Positions 48,843 to 60,059 of a DNA stretch of 64,000 nucleotides are shown here, piece by piece (position 1 is the first letter of the stretch; the number at the start of each line of letters is the position of its first letter). Location of the stretch: positions 2,542,001 to 2,606,000 of the forward strand of contig NZ_WKJQ01000001.1 in NCBI RefSeq assembly GCF_009674625.1, written 5' to 3'. Under the pieces are notes generated by a model, which saw only the letters and a list, made by a program, of their open reading frames with translations, did not search any database and was not told the origin of the DNA. Both the position numbers and the translations under genes were made by a program. This DNA comes from Haloferax marinum. Lineage in GTDB: Archaea > Halobacteriota > Halobacteria > Halobacteriales > Haloferacaceae.

Positions 48843-50285
48843 ATGAGACTCCTCGCGTTCGACGGCCGGATGGGTGCGAGCGGAGACATGCTCCTCGGAG
48901 CGCTCGTTTCCGCTGGTGCTGACCCATCGGTTCTCGACCCCGTCGAAGACGCACTCGACATCGAATACCGAGTCCACGAAGTAGACAAAAACGGCATCGT
49001 CGCCACCAAAGTAGACGTCCTCGTCCCCGAGACAGACGGTGGTGACCCGCGTGGCGAAGGCCACGGCGACGACCACGGACGGGACACCGACGACGGACAG
49101 ACCGCCCACGACGACGGAGACGACGGTTCCACAGGGACGAGGCGACATCGCGTGCGTGGGACGCTCTCTTCGGACGACGGCCATTCGCACTCTTCGGACG
49201 ACGGCCATCACCATAGCCACGACCACTACCACTCACACGACCACTCACACGACCACTCACACGACCACGAACACACACACGCCGAGGGTCACGGCCCCCA
49301 CCGAACCTACCCCGAGGTGGTCGAACTCGTCGAATCGATGTCTCTCCCGGCGGGTATCGTCGACGACGCGACTGCCATCTTCCGCGTCCTCGGAGAGGCC
49401 GAAGCCGAGGTTCACGGGACCGACCTCGAAGACACTCACTTCCACGAAGTCGGTGCCGACGACGCGATTGCCGACGTGGTCGGGACCTGCCTCCTTCTCG
49501 ACGACCTCGACGTCGACCGGGTCGTGACTGCACCAATCTCTGTCGGTGGCGGTGAGACGACGATGAGCCACGGAACCTACCCGATTCCCGCACCTGCGGT
49601 TCTCAACGTAGTCGAGCGGGCAGACTGGGCCATCCGTGGCGGCCCCGTCGAGGCGGAACTGCTCACGCCGACCGGAGCGGCTATCCTCGCACACGTCGCG
49701 GAGGGTGTCGAGACACTTCCCTCTCTGTCCGTCGAGTCGTCGGGCTACGGTGCCGGTGGGTGGGACTTCCCCGACCACCCGAACGTCCTTCGGGCCATCG
49801 TCGGTGACGGCGGGTCGCGACTCGTCCGCGACGAGATTTCGGTCCTCGAGACGAACCTCGACGACGCGTCACCCGAGATACTCGGGAGTCTACAGGAGAC
49901 GCTGAAAGACGCCGGCGCGCGCGACGTCTCTATCATCCCCACGACGATGAAGAAGGCCCGCCCCGGCCACCTCGTCAAAGTCGTCGTCAAACCAGAAGAC
50001 GTCGAGCGCGTCGCCTACCGTCTCGCCGTCGAGACGGGGACGCTGGGAATCAGAGAACACGGTGCGGGCCACCGCTGGACTGCCCACCGCGAGTTCGAGA
50101 CGGCGACCCTCGACATCGACGGCGACACCTACGAGGTGACGGTGAAAGTCGCCAGCGACGCAGACGGTGTCGTCTACGACAGAAGCGCCGAGTACGACGA
50201 CGCACTCGCCGTGGCGAAAGAGACGGGAGTCGCGGTTCGTGAGGTCATGCGGCGAGCAGTGGATGCGGTCGCGACAGACGAATAA
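48843..50285 (+). CDS. larC: LarC-family nickel insertion protein with histidine-rich insert
   Basis: LarC inserts nickel into the pincer cofactor of lactate racemase, a CTP-dependent step. The 480-residue protein has MRLLAFDGRMGASGDMLLGALV at the start and HFHEVGADDAIADVVGTCLLLDDL, followed by SGYGAGGWDFPDHPN and the C-terminal LETNLDDASPEILGSLQE, all LarC motifs. Between residues about 70 and 155 is an insert rich in His and Asp, ending in repeated HDHS/HSHD units, a plausible nickel-binding site. Three 12-bp DNA repeats (CACTCACACGAC at 49230-49265) encode part of it. TTTTTACC lies about 28 nt before the ATG. No larA, larB or larE is present in the window. Confidence 0.9.
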   Translation: MRLLAFDGRMGASGDMLLGALVSAGADPSVLDPVEDALDIEYRVHEVDKNGIVATKVDVLVPETDGGDPRGEGHGDDHGRDTDDGQTAHDDGDDGSTGTRRHRVRGTLSSDDGHSHSSDDGHHHSHDHYHSHDHSHDHSHDHEHTHAEGHGPHRTYPEVVELVESMSLPAGIVDDATAIFRVLGEAEAEVHGTDLEDTHFHEVGADDAIADVVGTCLLLDDLDVDRVVTAPISVGGGETTMSHGTYPIPAPAVLNVVERADWAIRGGPVEAELLTPTGAAILAHVAEGVETLPSLSVESSGYGAGGWDFPDHPNVLRAIVGDGGSRLVRDEISVLETNLDDASPEILGSLQETLKDAGARDVSIIPTTMKKARPGHLVKVVVKPEDVERVAYRLAVETGTLGIREHGAGHRWTAHREFETATLDIDGDTYEVTVKVASDADGVVYDRSAEYDDALAVAKETGVAVREVMRRAVDAVATDE

Positions 50286-52660: not shown

Positions 52661-53398
52661 CTAGGTCTGTCGCGTCCGGTGTTCGTCCAGTGCCTCGTCG
52701 ATACTCAGTTCCCCGCCGGCGACCCGGCGAGCGAGTTCGTCGTCGATAGCTCGGTTATCGTCCGAGACCTCGCGCGAGCGAGATTTGATGCGCTGGAGTT
52801 CGCCTTCGGTCGGTTCTATCTCTCGGGACTCGATTCGCTCACCTTTCATCCGGGCGATGTTGACTGCGGCGAGAACGTCTCCCATCCCGCGAGCGCCAGA
52901 GCCGAGATACGGTGTCGTCCCTGTCTCGTCTACGAGTTCGACCGGAATATCGTCGAGTTCGTTTATCAGTTTCGCGCCCTGCAGGCGTGCGCCATCTCCG
53001 ATTCGGACCACTGGGTCGACGGCGTCACGGGTCTCGCGTCGGATGACGTCGACCGCATTCGCCAGCGGCACGTGGAACGCGGCGACGACCGTCGTCCCAG
53101 AGAGAATCGCGATGCCCGGCCTCGTTCCGGGGTCGACGCCGACGACCGTCCGTCCGCCGCCGCCACGAAGCGTTGCGAGTGCTTCGTCCACGGCGCGACG
53201 CGCTTCGTCGCCAGTTGCCGTCACCCGCGAGACAGCGGCGTCTCTCTCGACGTCGTCGTCCTGCCCGGTGATGAGGACACGTGCCTGTTCGGGGAGTGGG
53301 TCACCCGGTTCGATGGTCGTGAAGGTGACACCTCGACTCCGTAATTCTGCCACGGCTTCGTGGTAGAGTTCGAAATCCGTGGTCGCGACGACTATCAC
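52661..53398 (-). CDS. RuvC/RNase H-like predicted nuclease next to radB
   Basis: A 245-residue protein from a GTG at 53398, chosen since the frame above it is radB antisense. Residues 1-80 form a small Rossmann-like domain starting MIVVATTDFELYHEAV. The RNase H-like core starts RTVVGVDPGTRPGIAILSG, with the first catalytic Asp, and ends GMGDVLAAVNIARMKGE, which resembles the last acidic helix (DALA) of RuvC. VELVDETGTTPYLGSG is between. It fits the archaeal YqgF/RuvC-like or DUF460-related group, proposed for DNA repair or rRNA processing. It is divergent from radB with 105 bp between start codons. Confidence 0.75.
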   Translation of the reverse strand: MIVVATTDFELYHEAVAELRSRGVTFTTIEPGDPLPEQARVLITGQDDDVERDAAVSRVTATGDEARRAVDEALATLRGGGGRTVVGVDPGTRPGIAILSGTTVVAAFHVPLANAVDVIRRETRDAVDPVVRIGDGARLQGAKLINELDDIPVELVDETGTTPYLGSGARGMGDVLAAVNIARMKGERIESREIEPTEGELQRIKSRSREVSDDNRAIDDELARRVAGGELSIDEALDEHRTRQT

Positions 53399-53503
53399 GA
53401 GTGGGGGTTGGCGACGGTGACGAATAAAGCGTGTTGCGTCGGTCGGGACACTGCTGTGGGGTGGACCGAGGACTTTTTCGGTCGGTGGCGCACACTTCCG
53501 TCC

Positions 53504-54193
53504 GTGACAGACCCAGTCTCCACCGGATGTGCCTCGCTCGACGACCTGCTCGACGGTGGGTTCGAACGCGGTACCGTCACGCAGGTGTACGGACCGCCCG
53601 CTGCCGGCAAGACGAACGTCGCGCTCTCTGCGGCCGTCCACGTCGCCGCCGCAGGCGGTACCGTCGTCTACATCGACACAGAAGGGTTGTCGGTCGACCG
53701 CTTCCAGCAACTCGCGGAAGCCGTCGCCCCCGCCGACGTGGAGACTGTGACCTCGCGGTTGATGATTAGCGAGGCGTACGACTTCGAAGACCAAGAAGAG
53801 GCCGTCCGCGACGCTGCCGAGTTCGTCGACCGCGCCGATTTGATCGTCCTCGACTCCGCGACTGGCTTCTACCGACTCGAACGAACCGCCGAAGGAGACG
53901 GCGGTGAGTCGCTCCGCCGTGTCGCCCGGCAGGTGACACACCTCCTGTCGCTGGCGCGGAAACACGACCTCGCCGTCCTCCTCACGAATCAGGTCTACTC
54001 CGACCCCGAGAGCGACCGGACGCGCGCACTCGGCGGCCACACACTCGAACACTGGACCGGCACCGTCGTCCGACTCGACCGGTTCCGCGGTGGCAATCGC
54101 CGAGCGACGCTCGAAAAACACCGCGCGAAACCTGCCGGTGAGACGGCGACGTTCAAGATAACGGACCGCGGGCTCGCCGGCACGGACTTATAA
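53504..54193 (+). CDS. radB: DNA repair and recombination protein RadB
   Basis: RadB is the archaeal recombinase paralogue that helps RadA. The 229-residue protein has only the RecA core without the N-terminal helix-hairpin-helix domain: VSTGCASLDDLLDGGFERGTVTQVYGPPAAGKTNVALSAA (Walker A GPPAAGKT), VVYIDTEGLSVDRFQQLAE and ADLIVLDSATGFYRLE (Walker B). The length agrees with RadB, not RadA. I start at a GTG at 53504; ACTTTTTCGG about 28 nt upstream supports a leaderless transcript. It is divergent from the RNase H-like gene. Confidence 0.95.
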   Translation: MTDPVSTGCASLDDLLDGGFERGTVTQVYGPPAAGKTNVALSAAVHVAAAGGTVVYIDTEGLSVDRFQQLAEAVAPADVETVTSRLMISEAYDFEDQEEAVRDAAEFVDRADLIVLDSATGFYRLERTAEGDGGESLRRVARQVTHLLSLARKHDLAVLLTNQVYSDPESDRTRALGGHTLEHWTGTVVRLDRFRGGNRRATLEKHRAKPAGETATFKITDRGLAGTDL

Positions 54194-54271: not shown

Positions 54272-55414
54272 TTACAGTTCGTTCAGTTTTCGCAGTAGTT
54301 GGCCGCGGTAGCGTTCGTCGGCTTCGAAGCCTTTCACCTCGAGCACGTTGCGTTCGAGTTTGTCGAGTGCGACGTGGAACGCGTGTTCCGAACCGTAGCC
54401 TTCGCCACTTCCGGCCAGTTGGCCGTGACTCGTGCGGAGGCGAATCTGGCACTGGATGAGCGGCGTTCCGCGGAGTTTCTCTTTGTGTTCGTGGAAGCGG
54501 ACGTGGGCGTGAAGGACGCTCATCCGCTGGTATTTGTCCGCCACCTCGGTGATGGCCGAGATGATGTCCTGGCGACTCAGCGTCTCCAAGAGACCGATGT
54601 TCGTGACCTGCACGTCCATCCGCTCTTCTTCCGTGTAGGTGAGCGCGCGGAGCACGTCGGTCTTCGTCAGCACGCCGAGCACCTCACCATCGTCGTCTTC
54701 GGGGGTGACGACGAGACCAGCGATATCGTTTTCGAGCATCCGAGCGACTGCGTCGCGGACGGTCTCTCCGGGCGACGCCGTGAGCGCCGGACTGGTCATC
54801 AGGTCGTAGACCGGCAGGTCTAACATCCGGTCGGTGTCTCCGCGGCGGTCCTGTTTGCCCTGGCGGCCCTCGTCGCGAACCATGAACTCGACGAGGTCGT
54901 AGGTGGTGAGAACACCCGCGAGCCGGCTGTCCGTGTCGACGACCGGGAGGCGCGAGATGCCGTGTTCACGGAGTTTGTTGATAGCCTGTCCGAGGTGGTC
55001 ACGCTCGCCGATGGTGACCACGTCGTCGGTGTAGATTTGTTCGACAGTCAGTGCGTCGAGATTTTCGAGGACGGCTTCGAGGATGCCGTTCTGGGTGACG
55101 ACACCGTACTGTTGTTCGCCCTCGTAGACGGGGGCGACTTTCGTATCTCCCTCGACGAGCATCCGCGCGACTTCACGCACGTTCTCGTGTCGGTCGATTT
55201 TGGGGACCGCCTTCGTCAGTGCGGCCGCCTTGGTGTTGTCTTCGACGTGCGAGTTGATGAGTTGCTTCTCACCGATGACGCCCGCGTACTCGCCGTCTTC
55301 CATGACGATAATGGCTTTAGGGTTTTCCCGCTCGAAGATGGAGCGGACTTTGCCTAATCGCTCGTTAACGTCGACCTCGATGAAATCAGGAGTGGCGATA
55401 TCAGCAATATCCAT
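54272..55414 (-). CDS. Four-CBS-domain protein with ribosome-hibernation-factor-like C-terminus
   Basis: The 380-residue protein has four tandem CBS domains, starting MDIADIATPDFIEVDVNERLGKV and repeated near KAVPKIDRHENVREVARML, LTVEQIYTDDVVTIGERDHLGQA and YDLMTSPALTASPGETVRDAV. CBS pairs sense adenosyl nucleotides. The last 100 residues read VTNIGLLETLSRQDIISAITEVADKY, HAHVRFHEHKEKLRGTPLIQCQIRLRTSHG and ALDKLERNVLEVKGF, which resembles the HPF/RaiA fold that occupies the ribosome's A and P sites. An energy-sensing ribosome-hibernation protein is the inference. The start at 55414 is before the conserved CBS opening. Confidence 0.8.
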   Translation of the reverse strand: MDIADIATPDFIEVDVNERLGKVRSIFERENPKAIIVMEDGEYAGVIGEKQLINSHVEDNTKAAALTKAVPKIDRHENVREVARMLVEGDTKVAPVYEGEQQYGVVTQNGILEAVLENLDALTVEQIYTDDVVTIGERDHLGQAINKLREHGISRLPVVDTDSRLAGVLTTYDLVEFMVRDEGRQGKQDRRGDTDRMLDLPVYDLMTSPALTASPGETVRDAVARMLENDIAGLVVTPEDDDGEVLGVLTKTDVLRALTYTEEERMDVQVTNIGLLETLSRQDIISAITEVADKYQRMSVLHAHVRFHEHKEKLRGTPLIQCQIRLRTSHGQLAGSGEGYGSEHAFHVALDKLERNVLEVKGFEADERYRGQLLRKLNEL

Positions 55415-55792
55415 AATACATCCTGATATACAACGCGTCCTATCTTGAAACTTCGTCCCGTTTCCAGTGGTCAAGAAGCACCGAAATCGCAAGGCGACGG
55501 TGACCAGCAACGGCCGTATTCCGACGAATGACGGCCTGTGTTGGTGTTTAGCACACATATGGCAATTGATAACATGGCGCTACAGAGACATCACGCCGGC
55601 CACCGTTCGAATCGCTGCGCGCGGTTTTCCCCGAATCACAGCGGATTTCGGTCCGGACACCGATCGACCACAGCATAATCACTCATTGAATATTCTCCTA
55701 ATTCGGCGGGTAGGAGTATCCTAACGCTACGATTCCAAACATCTAGCCTCTCCATACTTACACGCTTTCCAACCGTTCTCCTTTTCGAGAGT
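55415..55792. other. 378-bp region between CBS-HPF gene and the pil operon
   Basis: No convincing gene. A frame at 55467-55724 of 85 codons has basic, Trp/Cys-rich content unlike halophile proteins and no recognisable domain. The region is the upstream side for both divergent genes: an AT-rich element lies near 55440 for the minus-strand gene, and CATTGAATATTCTCC near 55683-55697 is a candidate for the pil operon promoter. No inverted repeats stood out. Confidence 0.5.
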
Positions 55793-57934
55793 ATGGTGAC
55801 TCCTGACAAGAACTCTGAAACAGCTCGCCACGACGGCGAAGAATCGGTCCGAGCAGACGGCTCGGGACGTGCAGAACTGGTCCCGACGACCGGCTTTAGC
55901 GCAATGGCTACGCGTGCAATGGAGCTTCCAGTTGCACAGACAGACCGTATCGAGTATGGGCCGTCCGAGGTGCAAACCGAGGACGAAGAAGCGGTAGACG
56001 AAGAACCACCAGAGACGCTCCGCGAGGCAGTCCTTCGCGAGGTCAAGGCGTTCTTCGCGGACCTCGACGAGGAGACGGCCTTCGCGCCGGCACCGAGCGA
56101 GGAGTTCATCGAAGCGAACTTCTTCGACTTCTCGTTCCTCGAAGGCGTCCAGGATATCGAGCACTACTGGGTGAACAAACCCTTCGCGTTCGTCTCTATC
56201 CTGTACGACCACACCCAACGCGAGTACCGCTACCACGTGAGCGAACCCGTTCTCGACCACTTCGAGACGTTCGTCCGCGACGACCTGACGAAGATTCTCC
56301 GAAACAGCTTGCTGTACCGTGATTTGGACCACGATGGAGACCGAGAAGACGTCTTCGACGACGAAGCACGGGATATCATCTCGGAACACGCCGCGACGGT
56401 CGAAGACGGCTCTCTCTGGAAGTTGTTCTACTTCTTGCTCCGCGACTTCATCCACTTCGGCCGTGTCGACCCGGTGATGCGTGACCCCGGCATCGAAGAT
56501 ATCTCCTGTGACGGTGACGGCGTGCCGGTCTACATCTTCCACGGTGTCTACCGCGACATGCCGACGAACGTCGTCTTCGACGACGGCGACCTCTCGTCGT
56601 ACACCATCCGCCTCGCACAGCGTGCAGGCAAGCAGGTGACCGTCTCCGACCCACTCGTCGACGCGAGTCTCCCGGACGGGTCTCGTGTCCAACTGACGCT
56701 CGGGTCCGACATCGCGACCCGCGGGTCGAACTTCACGATTCGGAAGTTCGCTGACGAACCGCTGTCGCCAGTCGACCTCGTCCGCTGGAACACCTTCAGC
56801 GTCGAACAGATGGCGTACTTCTGGCTCGCCATCGAGAACAACCGCTCGCTCATCTTCGCGGGCGGGACGGGGTCCGGGAAGACCACGTCGATGAACGCGG
56901 TGTCGTTCTTCGTCCCTGGATACGCGAAAGTCGTCTCCATCGAAGACACCCGCGAAATCACCCTGCCGCACGACAACTGGATTCAGTCGGTCACGCGTGA
57001 CACCTTCACGGCCGACGGCCGCGGCGAAGTGTCGATGTACGCGCTCCTGCAGGCCGCGCTCCGACAGCGCCCCGAGTACCTGCTCGTCGGTGAGATTCGG
57101 ACGGAAGAACGCGTCGCTCTGACGTTCTTCCACTCGATTGCGACTGGCCACACCGCCTACACGACGTTCCACGCCGACTCCTCGGAGGGCGTGGTCCACC
57201 GGATGCGGAACGAACCGCTCGGCGTCCCCGCACAGATGCTGTCGGACCTCGATATCATCTCCGTCCAGAAACAGATCCACCTCGAAGGAGACCGGACTCG
57301 CCGCAACATCGCGGTCACCGAAGTCGTCGGCGTGGACGAAGACGGAGAGGTCCAACTCCGAGACGTGTTCAAACGGAACCCGACCAACGACGTGCACGAA
57401 CGAGTGGGCGACTCGAAGGTTCTCGACGACATCGCGGCCGAACGTGGCTGGACCAAGGCCGAACTCCAGTACGAACTGGACGTTCGCGCCGACGTCCTCC
57501 GGTACATCGCCGCACAGGGTATCGAAGACTACCGTGCGGTGTCTGCGATGATTCGCCGCTTCGAGCGTGACCGCGAGGGCCTCCTCGCTCGTGTCTACGA
57601 AGAGACCGACCTCGTGACCGTCGAAGCAGACGACGACGTTGCAGGCGACGACTCCGACGAACCAGCCGACGAGAGCAAACTCGCAGAAGAGGCCGAGGAG
57701 ATTCTCTCCGACCTCTTCGACATCGAAGTTGGCGACACGACCGAATCGAGCGACGATGCCGACGGTGAGGCTGCAGACACCGACGACGCCGACAGCGACG
57801 ATGAGGCTGCAGACACCGACGACGTCGACGCCCACAGCACGGCGACCGACAACACGTCCGAGGAAGACGCTGACGCGTCTGCTGATGAAGACGTGACCGA
57901 CGAAAGCGATTCGGAGGAGTCCGATGCCCGCTGA
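55793..57934 (+). CDS. pilB: Type IV pilus/secretion ATPase, PilB/GspE (TadA) family
   Basis: The 713-residue hexameric ATPase powers pilus assembly or export. After an N-terminal region (1-200) with a WKLFYFLLRDFIHFG segment, the core shows VDPLVDASLPDGSRVQLTLG and FTIRKF, Walker A IFAGGTGSGKTTSMN near residue 358, the Asp box EDTREITLPHDNW and Walker B LLVGEIRTEERVA. HTAYTTFHADSSEGVVHRM is the His box. The last 90 residues are a very acidic, Asp/Ser/Thr-rich disordered tail. The sequence overlaps the pilC start by 11 bp, so the two are translated together. Confidence 0.93.
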   Translation: MVTPDKNSETARHDGEESVRADGSGRAELVPTTGFSAMATRAMELPVAQTDRIEYGPSEVQTEDEEAVDEEPPETLREAVLREVKAFFADLDEETAFAPAPSEEFIEANFFDFSFLEGVQDIEHYWVNKPFAFVSILYDHTQREYRYHVSEPVLDHFETFVRDDLTKILRNSLLYRDLDHDGDREDVFDDEARDIISEHAATVEDGSLWKLFYFLLRDFIHFGRVDPVMRDPGIEDISCDGDGVPVYIFHGVYRDMPTNVVFDDGDLSSYTIRLAQRAGKQVTVSDPLVDASLPDGSRVQLTLGSDIATRGSNFTIRKFADEPLSPVDLVRWNTFSVEQMAYFWLAIENNRSLIFAGGTGSGKTTSMNAVSFFVPGYAKVVSIEDTREITLPHDNWIQSVTRDTFTADGRGEVSMYALLQAALRQRPEYLLVGEIRTEERVALTFFHSIATGHTAYTTFHADSSEGVVHRMRNEPLGVPAQMLSDLDIISVQKQIHLEGDRTRRNIAVTEVVGVDEDGEVQLRDVFKRNPTNDVHERVGDSKVLDDIAAERGWTKAELQYELDVRADVLRYIAAQGIEDYRAVSAMIRRFERDREGLLARVYEETDLVTVEADDDVAGDDSDEPADESKLAEEAEEILSDLFDIEVGDTTESSDDADGEAADTDDADSDDEAADTDDVDAHSTATDNTSEEDADASADEDVTDESDSEESDAR

Positions 57935-60059
57935 TTCGCCGGCCTCGGTCCCGCTGCCCGACTACGAAGTCGAGCAGTACTTCCCACGCGAACACTTCGA
58001 CGAATCGCCAGAAGACGTTCGTCGGCTCCGTGCCCGCTACGGGTACGTCCGAACGTACTTCAAGCGCCACCCGGCAGGTCACCGCGACCTCCAGCGCTGG
58101 CTGAACCAATCCCGCGTCGGGATGACCTACGACGAGTATCTGACCGACTCGGTCAAGTTAGCGTTCGTCGCTGCTGTCGTCGGGTCGCTCATCGGTGTCG
58201 GTGTGACGTACCTCCTCACCCAGATGGGCGTGCTGGCTAACGCCAGTAGCCCAGTGAGCTTTGGCGTTGGCTACAACCTCATCGCCCCGCTCCTCCCGTA
58301 CAAGGTTCCCATCCTCGGCACACTGCTCGTACTCGCCCTCAGCGGCCTGTTCGGTGCAGGGACGTACTACACGCGGTACTACCTCCCGAAACAGCGTGCC
58401 GAGATGCGCGGTCGGAGCGTCGACATCCTGCTCCCGCACGCCATCGTCTACATGTACGCGCTCAGTCACGGTGGGATGAGCTTCCTCGAAGTCATCCGCT
58501 CTGTGGCAGACGCCCCCGACTACGGAGAGGTGTCCCGCGAGTTCGAGATGATCGACCGCGACATGGACCTGTTCGGGAACGACCTGTTCACGGCCCTCCG
58601 CAACGCGCGGAACCTCACGCCGTCTCTCAACTTCGAACAGTTCCTCGACGACTTACTGTCGGTTCTCGACTCCGGTGGCGACGTCTCCGCGTTCTTGGAC
58701 CGCGAGTCGTCGACCTACCTCGAAGAAGCACGTGACGAACAAGAGGACTTCATCGAGACGCTGTCGATGCTCTCGGAAGTGTTCGTCGCGGCGTTCGTCG
58801 CCGCACCACTGCTGCTCATCGTCACGCTGATGGTCATCAGTTTCCTCGGCGGCGACACCATCGGTCAGCTCTACGCCCTGAACTACCTCATCTTCCCGCT
58901 GGGGATGCTGTTGTTCTTGCTCCTCATCGACGTGCTGTCGGCACCGTACACGCAGGACACGGTTCGGACGAAACACGACGTGACCATCGTCGAAGAGATT
59001 CGCACGGCTATCGTGAACTTCGGTCGCATGGTCCGACGCGAAATCGAACGCGCCCGCGAGACCCGGTGGGGAACGAACACGGACGTCGCTTCCGACGGCG
59101 GCGTCGTAGACGCCCGCCTCGACCACTACCGCCGAGCGAACGTCGTCTACGACCTCCGCAGACTCATCGGGAATCCTCTCGACATCATGCAGCGACAACC
59201 GTACCTGTCGGCGATTATCACCGTGCCCATCGCCATCGCGGCACCCTTCGTCGCCATCAGCCTCGGTCTCGCGACGCCGAGCATCGACGCCATGCTGGCC
59301 GACCCGTACAACACGACGGTTTGGCTCGTCGTCCTCCCGTTCGCCATCGTCGCTGTCCCACTCACCGTGTTCCACGAACTGCGAACGCGCAGAGAACGGA
59401 CGCTCGAACGGCGCTTCCCCGACACGCTCAACCTGCTGTCGAGTGCGAACCAGATGGGCATCCCACTCGTCGAAGCACTGGCACTCGTCTCGCGATGGTC
59501 GAGTGGTATCCTGGCAGACGAACTCCGCTCGCTCCGAAACGACATCCGCTGGAACTACGACGCCCACTCGGCGCTCATGGCATTCGCCGGTCGCCTCGGC
59601 GTCCCGCAACTCTCGCGGGTCATCCGCCTCATCGCGAGCGGTGGCCGAACGAGTGGTGACCTCTCGCGAGTCCTCAGCGTCGCTGCCGAAGACACGCGGA
59701 ACCGCTACAAACTCGAGAAATCCCGACGTCGCGCGATGGGTTCGTACATCGCCATCGTCGTCATGGGATACCTCGTCTACCTGTTCGTCATCCTCATGCT
59801 GGGTGCGAGTTACCTCGCTCCCCTCGCCGAGATGTCTGCGAGCGGGCAGACGGGTGGCGTCAGCGGGCAGGGACTCCCCATCGGACTCTCTGCTGTCCCG
59901 CTGGCTAACTTCCACGTGGTGTTCTTCCACTCCGCGCTCATCCAGGCGGTCGGCAGTGGTCTCCTCGCAGGAAAACTCGCAGACAACAGTGCCCTCAGTG
60001 GCCTGAAGTACGCACTCGGACTGTCCGCGCTGGCGCTCGTCGCCTTCGCATTGGTGTAA
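57924..60059 (+). CDS. pilC: Type IV pilus membrane platform protein, PilC/TadC (T2SSF) family
   Basis: The 711-residue protein has an N-terminal soluble region (1-75) followed by about nine or ten membrane helices arranged as two T2SSF modules. The first module's cytoplasmic loop contains GGMSFLEVIRSVADAPDYGEVSREFEMIDRDMDLFGNDLFTALRNARNLTPS, and the second QMGIPLVEALALVSRWSSGILADELRSLRNDIRW and LSRVIRLIASGGRTSGDLSRVLSVAAEDTRNRYKLEKSRR. Archaeal platforms usually carry both modules, as here. It starts 11 bp before the pilB stop and ends 3 bp before the next gene. Confidence 0.93.
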   Translation: MPADSPASVPLPDYEVEQYFPREHFDESPEDVRRLRARYGYVRTYFKRHPAGHRDLQRWLNQSRVGMTYDEYLTDSVKLAFVAAVVGSLIGVGVTYLLTQMGVLANASSPVSFGVGYNLIAPLLPYKVPILGTLLVLALSGLFGAGTYYTRYYLPKQRAEMRGRSVDILLPHAIVYMYALSHGGMSFLEVIRSVADAPDYGEVSREFEMIDRDMDLFGNDLFTALRNARNLTPSLNFEQFLDDLLSVLDSGGDVSAFLDRESSTYLEEARDEQEDFIETLSMLSEVFVAAFVAAPLLLIVTLMVISFLGGDTIGQLYALNYLIFPLGMLLFLLLIDVLSAPYTQDTVRTKHDVTIVEEIRTAIVNFGRMVRREIERARETRWGTNTDVASDGGVVDARLDHYRRANVVYDLRRLIGNPLDIMQRQPYLSAIITVPIAIAAPFVAISLGLATPSIDAMLADPYNTTVWLVVLPFAIVAVPLTVFHELRTRRERTLERRFPDTLNLLSSANQMGIPLVEALALVSRWSSGILADELRSLRNDIRWNYDAHSALMAFAGRLGVPQLSRVIRLIASGGRTSGDLSRVLSVAAEDTRNRYKLEKSRRRAMGSYIAIVVMGYLVYLFVILMLGASYLAPLAEMSASGQTGGVSGQGLPIGLSAVPLANFHVVFFHSALIQAVGSGLLAGKLADNSALSGLKYALGLSALALVAFALV

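Follow-up and report, generated by a model that had tools for sequence, protein, structure and literature searches.

The hibA locus

The window, a stretch of 64,000 nucleotides from the genome of Haloferax marinum, encodes on its minus strand a 380-amino-acid protein in which four CBS domains are followed by a domain of the HPF/RaiA fold. This gene is the counterpart of Haloferax volcanii HVO_2384, as judged by the genus, the protein family and the neighbouring radB (HVO_2383 in H. volcanii; PMC7776575). Named Haloferax orthologs of the protein are 90-94% identical to it.

54272..55414, minus strand: hibA, core type, 380-aa protein with four CBS domains and an HPF/RaiA-fold domain, counterpart of H. 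volcanii HVO_2384
54641..55414, minus strand: N-terminal CBS module, residues 1-258, four CBS domains (four Pfam CBS stretches)
54821..54883, minus strand: short loop between CBS3 and CBS4, residues 178-198, 21 residues
54275..54622, minus strand: C-terminal HPF/RaiA-fold domain and tail, residues 265-380
53360..54193, plus strand: radB, recombination mediator (Pfam Rad51, E 6e-31), tail to tail with hibA

The codons of hibA run from 55414 down to 54275, with the stop codon at 54272-54274. The start was placed at 55414 because the reading frames of seven Haloferax loci (L014-L020) begin just three codons ahead of the equivalent methionine; a longer form starting from an ATG at 55558, up to which the frame is open in the window, was ruled out because the upstream region is closed in these orthologs. 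A search for a structured element between the convergent hibA and radB genes found stability no greater than that of shuffled sequences.

Divergent from hibA lies a gene for a PilB3-like type II/IV secretion ATPase (55793-57934, plus strand), which is a neighbour of hibA in all Haloferax loci seen and is overlapped by a gene for a T2SSF membrane protein (57924-60059, plus strand), the two belonging to an archaeal pilus system. A conserved haloarchaeal protein is encoded at 52661-53400 (minus strand), its start lying antisense to the 5' part of the radB ORF; the product has no Pfam match at 1e-4, yet the gene is kept beside radB in most loci. At 48843-50285 (plus strand), a nickel insertion protein (Pfam PF01969) carries a long His/Asp-rich insert that is likely to be a metal store.

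The HibA family was described in April 2026 (Nat Commun) as a fusion of four CBS domains with an HPF/RaiA domain, with Pab0961 of Pyrococcus abyssi and TERMP_00697 of Thermococcus barophilus as the members studied, and was found in 47% of archaeal genomes (PMC13324472). On the ribosome, HibA occupies the mRNA channel of the 30S subunit and three positions on the 50S subunit; in Thermococcales, it inhibits translation, and deletion of hibA in T. barophilus lengthens the lag phase and reduces stationary-phase 70S ribosomes by about 60% (PMC13324472). The suspicion in the initial annotation that CBS-containing hibernation factors had been reported in other archaea was thus accurate. HVO_2384 itself was noted in 2025 (mBio), when it co-purified with a Pat2 variant and was described as having tandem CBS domains and a hibernation-factor domain at the C terminus (PMC12607858). 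The architecture of the window protein is therefore already known and was correctly spotted in the initial annotation. As an identified gene, the window hibA is an ordinary ortholog of a published factor; the interest that is left lies in the split between core and accessory copies in haloarchaea and in what the CBS site and RadB contribute.

Fusion of a CBS module and an HPF/RaiA-fold domain

Four CBS stretches (PF00571) are readily recognized at the N terminus by a Pfam search (E 4e-40). The resemblance of the C-terminal domain to bacterial HPF at the level of sequence is marginal. Pfam Ribosomal_S30AE matches residues 286-361 with 19.6 bits (E 0.0016), under the cut-off of 23.7 bits, and NCBIfam yfiA scores 13.4 bits, under its cut-off of 40.9 bits; a profile comparison of the C-terminal alignment with E. 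coli RaiA (a sequence that matches PDB RaiA over its full length) aligned 39 columns in the correct register at 34.8% probability. A whole-genome S30AE search yielded no standalone HPF above the cut-off, and hibA was not listed either, so that such a search is weak for this family. The protein is, accordingly, not classed as a bacterial-type HPF; the modelled domain nonetheless has the HPF fold.

The full-length AlphaFold model consists of a CBS module and a C-terminal domain, and because the best 50 Foldseek matches to it were all CBS proteins, the C-terminal domain was modelled separately (residues 265-380, the last 116; 18-row alignment; pLDDT 83.5). In both models, this domain has the order strand-helix-strand-strand-strand-helix. 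The comparison of a predicted structure with RaiA/HPF that the initial annotation had proposed gave a uniform result: all 22 Foldseek matches in the PDB at E<=0.001 are of the HPF/RaiA/YfiA type, namely, HPF, RaiA/YfiA/protein Y, chloroplast factors of the same family, or RafH, at 10-23% sequence identity.

The window protein is also homologous over residues 3-377 to the ribosome-bound HibA of P. abyssi (9sr9_H; phmmer, 174 bits, E 4e-50), and its alignment with chain a of 9l96 (235 bits) is in two segments. Among the folded parts of the protein, conservation is highest in the HPF domain (0.82 compared to 0.74-0.75 for CBS), with H310, E312, R315, L319, R325 (R/K), E338, G341, R355 and K361 showing little or no variation across core, accessory and non-halophile sequences. 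It could be argued from the S30AE score below the cut-off that this is an unrelated CBS regulator with a chance likeness to HPF at the C terminus; given the fold search, the full-length homology to ribosome-bound HibA and the conserved residues, we consider this extremely improbable and reject it. The fusion of four CBS domains to an HPF/RaiA-fold domain proposed in the initial annotation is confirmed far beyond chance, and the homology to HibA supports its view of the protein as a hibernation factor.

Core and accessory HibA in haloarchaea

Besides the window copy, the H. marinum genome contains two further HibA genes, at C1:1332301-1333449 and C1:2004718-2005860, making three in total. The presence of this layout in haloarchaea, which the initial annotation had singled out for checking, is general: the window-type, or core, HibA was found in 60 of the 60 sampled genomes of the haloarchaeal family, at 64-100% identity. 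In addition, 29 of these genomes carry one to three accessory copies each, 45 loci altogether, that are about 33-50% identical to the window copy; 26 of these loci are on a different contig from the core gene, several of the assemblies being drafts. The accessory loci of the same genome are:

L030:3218-4456, minus strand: accessory HibA paralog
L031:3719-4927, plus strand: accessory HibA paralog

Directly upstream of the L031 copy, there is an integrase-like ORF (L031:2354-3385; identified by eye).

The loop between CBS3 and CBS4 consists of 21-22 residues in core proteins and 19-22 in those of non-halophiles, whereas in nearly all accessory proteins it is Gly-rich and extends over 35-46 residues. 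The accessory tail is of the YGWWL/KRFGWxLE type, unlike that of the core. The phylogenetic tree splits the two types, with 43 rows and one long branch on the core side (support 92) and 45 rows plus L115 on the accessory side (support 96); these are SH-aLRT values obtained with a fast search, and the branching order is provisional. L062, a long branch with a short loop, groups weakly with the core. L115, the sole HibA found in its genome (G169), combines a long Gly-rich loop with a core-like tail and is basal among the accessory sequences, possibly as an intermediate between the two types.

Copies similar to that of L031 occur on 42 PLSDB plasmid records, and a core-like HibA on a single one (Natronorubrum bangense, 60.8% identical). 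The L031 copy is about 90% identical to plasmid copies in several haloarchaeal genera, which suggests recent transfer.

An accessory HibA appears to be present in ribosomal structures already deposited. A Haloferax-like uL5 chain was found in eight PDB entries (9l94, 9l95, 9l96, 9l98, 9l9c, 9l9j, 9l9k and 9l9v) and matches the uL5 of this genome over all 172 residues with 352 bits, the next haloarchaeal chain scoring 270. The CBS chain in 9l96, 9l98, 9l9c and 9l9v is placed within the accessory clade, next to a copy from a different Haloferax genome, and matches L099 with 689 bits. Thus, judging from the sequences, four of the eight apparently Haloferax large-subunit structures contain an accessory HibA. 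A PDB search with the uS7 of this genome retrieved no haloarchaeal entry, so these structures seem to be large subunits and are uninformative on the docking of the HPF domain to the 30S subunit.

The main text of the HibA paper does not discuss core and accessory copies in haloarchaea (PMC13324472); the split is an addition beyond that text, with priority uncertain. We tentatively put forward, at somewhat less than even chances, a two-tier organization of haloarchaeal HibA, with a universal core protein, maybe tied to RadB/RadA, and accessory copies with another 50S grip or another trigger. Under this two-tier scheme, the doubled Gly-rich loop and the new aromatic tail of accessory proteins would let them hold the large subunit, perhaps as free 50S, in another way or respond to another trigger.

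The predicted adenylate site and possible energy sensing

The adenylate-binding motif S/T-x-x-D is found in CBS3 (T170-D173) and CBS4 (T250-D253) of the window protein and is absent from CBS1 and CBS2. Among 89 haloarchaeal sequences, it is intact in both CBS3 and CBS4 of all 44 core and all 45 accessory proteins, never complete in CBS1, and complete in CBS2 in only 3 of the 44 core and 14 of the 45 accessory proteins. This pattern fits the single nucleotide site of P. abyssi HibA, which lies between CBS3 and CBS4, in a CBS module that binds AMP, ADP and ATP with Kd of 12 uM, 65 uM and 113 uM, respectively (PMC13324472).

The initial annotation went further and proposed a direct silencing of ribosomes according to the energy state, one polypeptide being both sensor and effector. 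In such a scheme, AMP binding (or loss of ATP) at the CBS module would drive HibA onto the ribosome. The invariance of the motif and the affinities measured in P. abyssi speak for such a switch. In the same protein, however, saturating AMP or ATP caused no clear change in ribosome binding or in the distribution of states, the conformations were largely unchanged by nucleotide, and native complexes contained none; the tests were performed at equilibrium, with competing tRNA and mRNA absent (PMC13324472). Because AMP and ATP had no clear effect there, the direct switch is a hypothesis that the architecture does not imply, and we regard it as unlikely. Hence, of the initial reading, the domains, the hibernation factor and the archaeal precedent stand, whereas a direct control of ribosome silencing by the energy state has yet to be established.

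A possible link to RadB

Pab0961 co-purified with RadB and GINS23, and interaction of HVO_2384 with RadA and RadB in vivo is mentioned as a personal communication (PMC3820547). Core HibA might therefore, mainly or additionally, work with RadB/RadA (and with GINS in Thermococcales), sensing adenylates and linking the energy state to recombination or the restart of forks; perhaps this partner withholds HibA from ribosomes. The arrangement of the genes is independent of these reports: hibA and radB are tail-to-tail neighbours in the window, in every other Haloferax locus seen and at 6 loci from other genera, and radB is within about 4 kb in 2 more. This adjacency is weak support because the genes are convergent, which precludes a common transcript, and because a search of the flanks did not find radB at 6 of the 14 haloarchaeal loci from other genera or at the six non-haloarchaeal loci. 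Abundant ribosome-bound proteins are, furthermore, frequent contaminants of pull-downs. The strong conservation of the HPF domain argues against a role in recombination, and HVO_2384 is unmentioned in the 2017 RadB paper. We regard a recombination role as unlikely.

Proposed action of core HibA

We conclude with high confidence that the window gene encodes the core haloarchaeal form of the archaeal ribosome hibernation factor HibA. By analogy with Thermococcales, where the same action is documented, we infer that in stressed or stationary Haloferax cells the HPF/RaiA domain at the C terminus would occupy the small-subunit mRNA/tRNA channel and the module of four CBS domains would move into vacant tRNA sites on the large subunit, so that translation would be blocked and 70S ribosomes protected until regrowth. 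A single adenylate is likely to bind between CBS3 and CBS4, as the motif suggests, and may tune the availability of HibA or its binding to partners rather than turn ribosome binding on or off. Several observations count against this hibernation model: the ribosome-bound Haloferax chain is of the accessory type, not the core copy, and seems to come from large subunits; sequence similarity to bacterial HPF is marginal; and partners reported for the protein, RadA/RadB and Pat2, hint at different or additional functions. Because Haloferax is amenable to genetics and has core and accessory HibA together, CBS sensing and the retention of several copies are addressable there.

Comparison with known systems

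HVO_2384 (D4GWN2) shares the architecture and the adjoining radB, and is expected to differ only at the species level. The HibA of Thermococcales has the same four CBS domains followed by HPF/RaiA, aligns over the full length and has, in the alignment, a similarly compact CBS3-CBS4 loop; its adenylate site at CBS3/CBS4 is predicted in the window protein from the motif. It is distant in sequence (non-haloarchaeal members of the phylum are 27-36% identical), and the neighbours differ, with the window hibA located beside radB and Pab0961 near GINS23. The accessory proteins (L030, L031 and 9l96 chain a) have the same domains and conserved HPF residues and are about 42% identical to the core, but differ in the longer Gly-rich loop, the tail, and a patchy, often plasmid-borne distribution.

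CBS modules also occupy archaeal ribosomes in the case of Dri (Pyrobaculum) and of SriA-D, standalone CBS proteins on Methanosarcina ribosomes (PDB 9znf, 9zng and 9zni). Unlike HibA, these proteins lack an HPF/RaiA domain: Dri consists of two CBS modules, whereas the window protein combines one CBS module with an HPF-fold domain. Conversely, bacterial HPF/RaiA (YfiA) has the fold of the window HibA domain, and KLER occurs in the final helix of both, but it has no CBS module, the structural matches being as distant as 10-23% identity.
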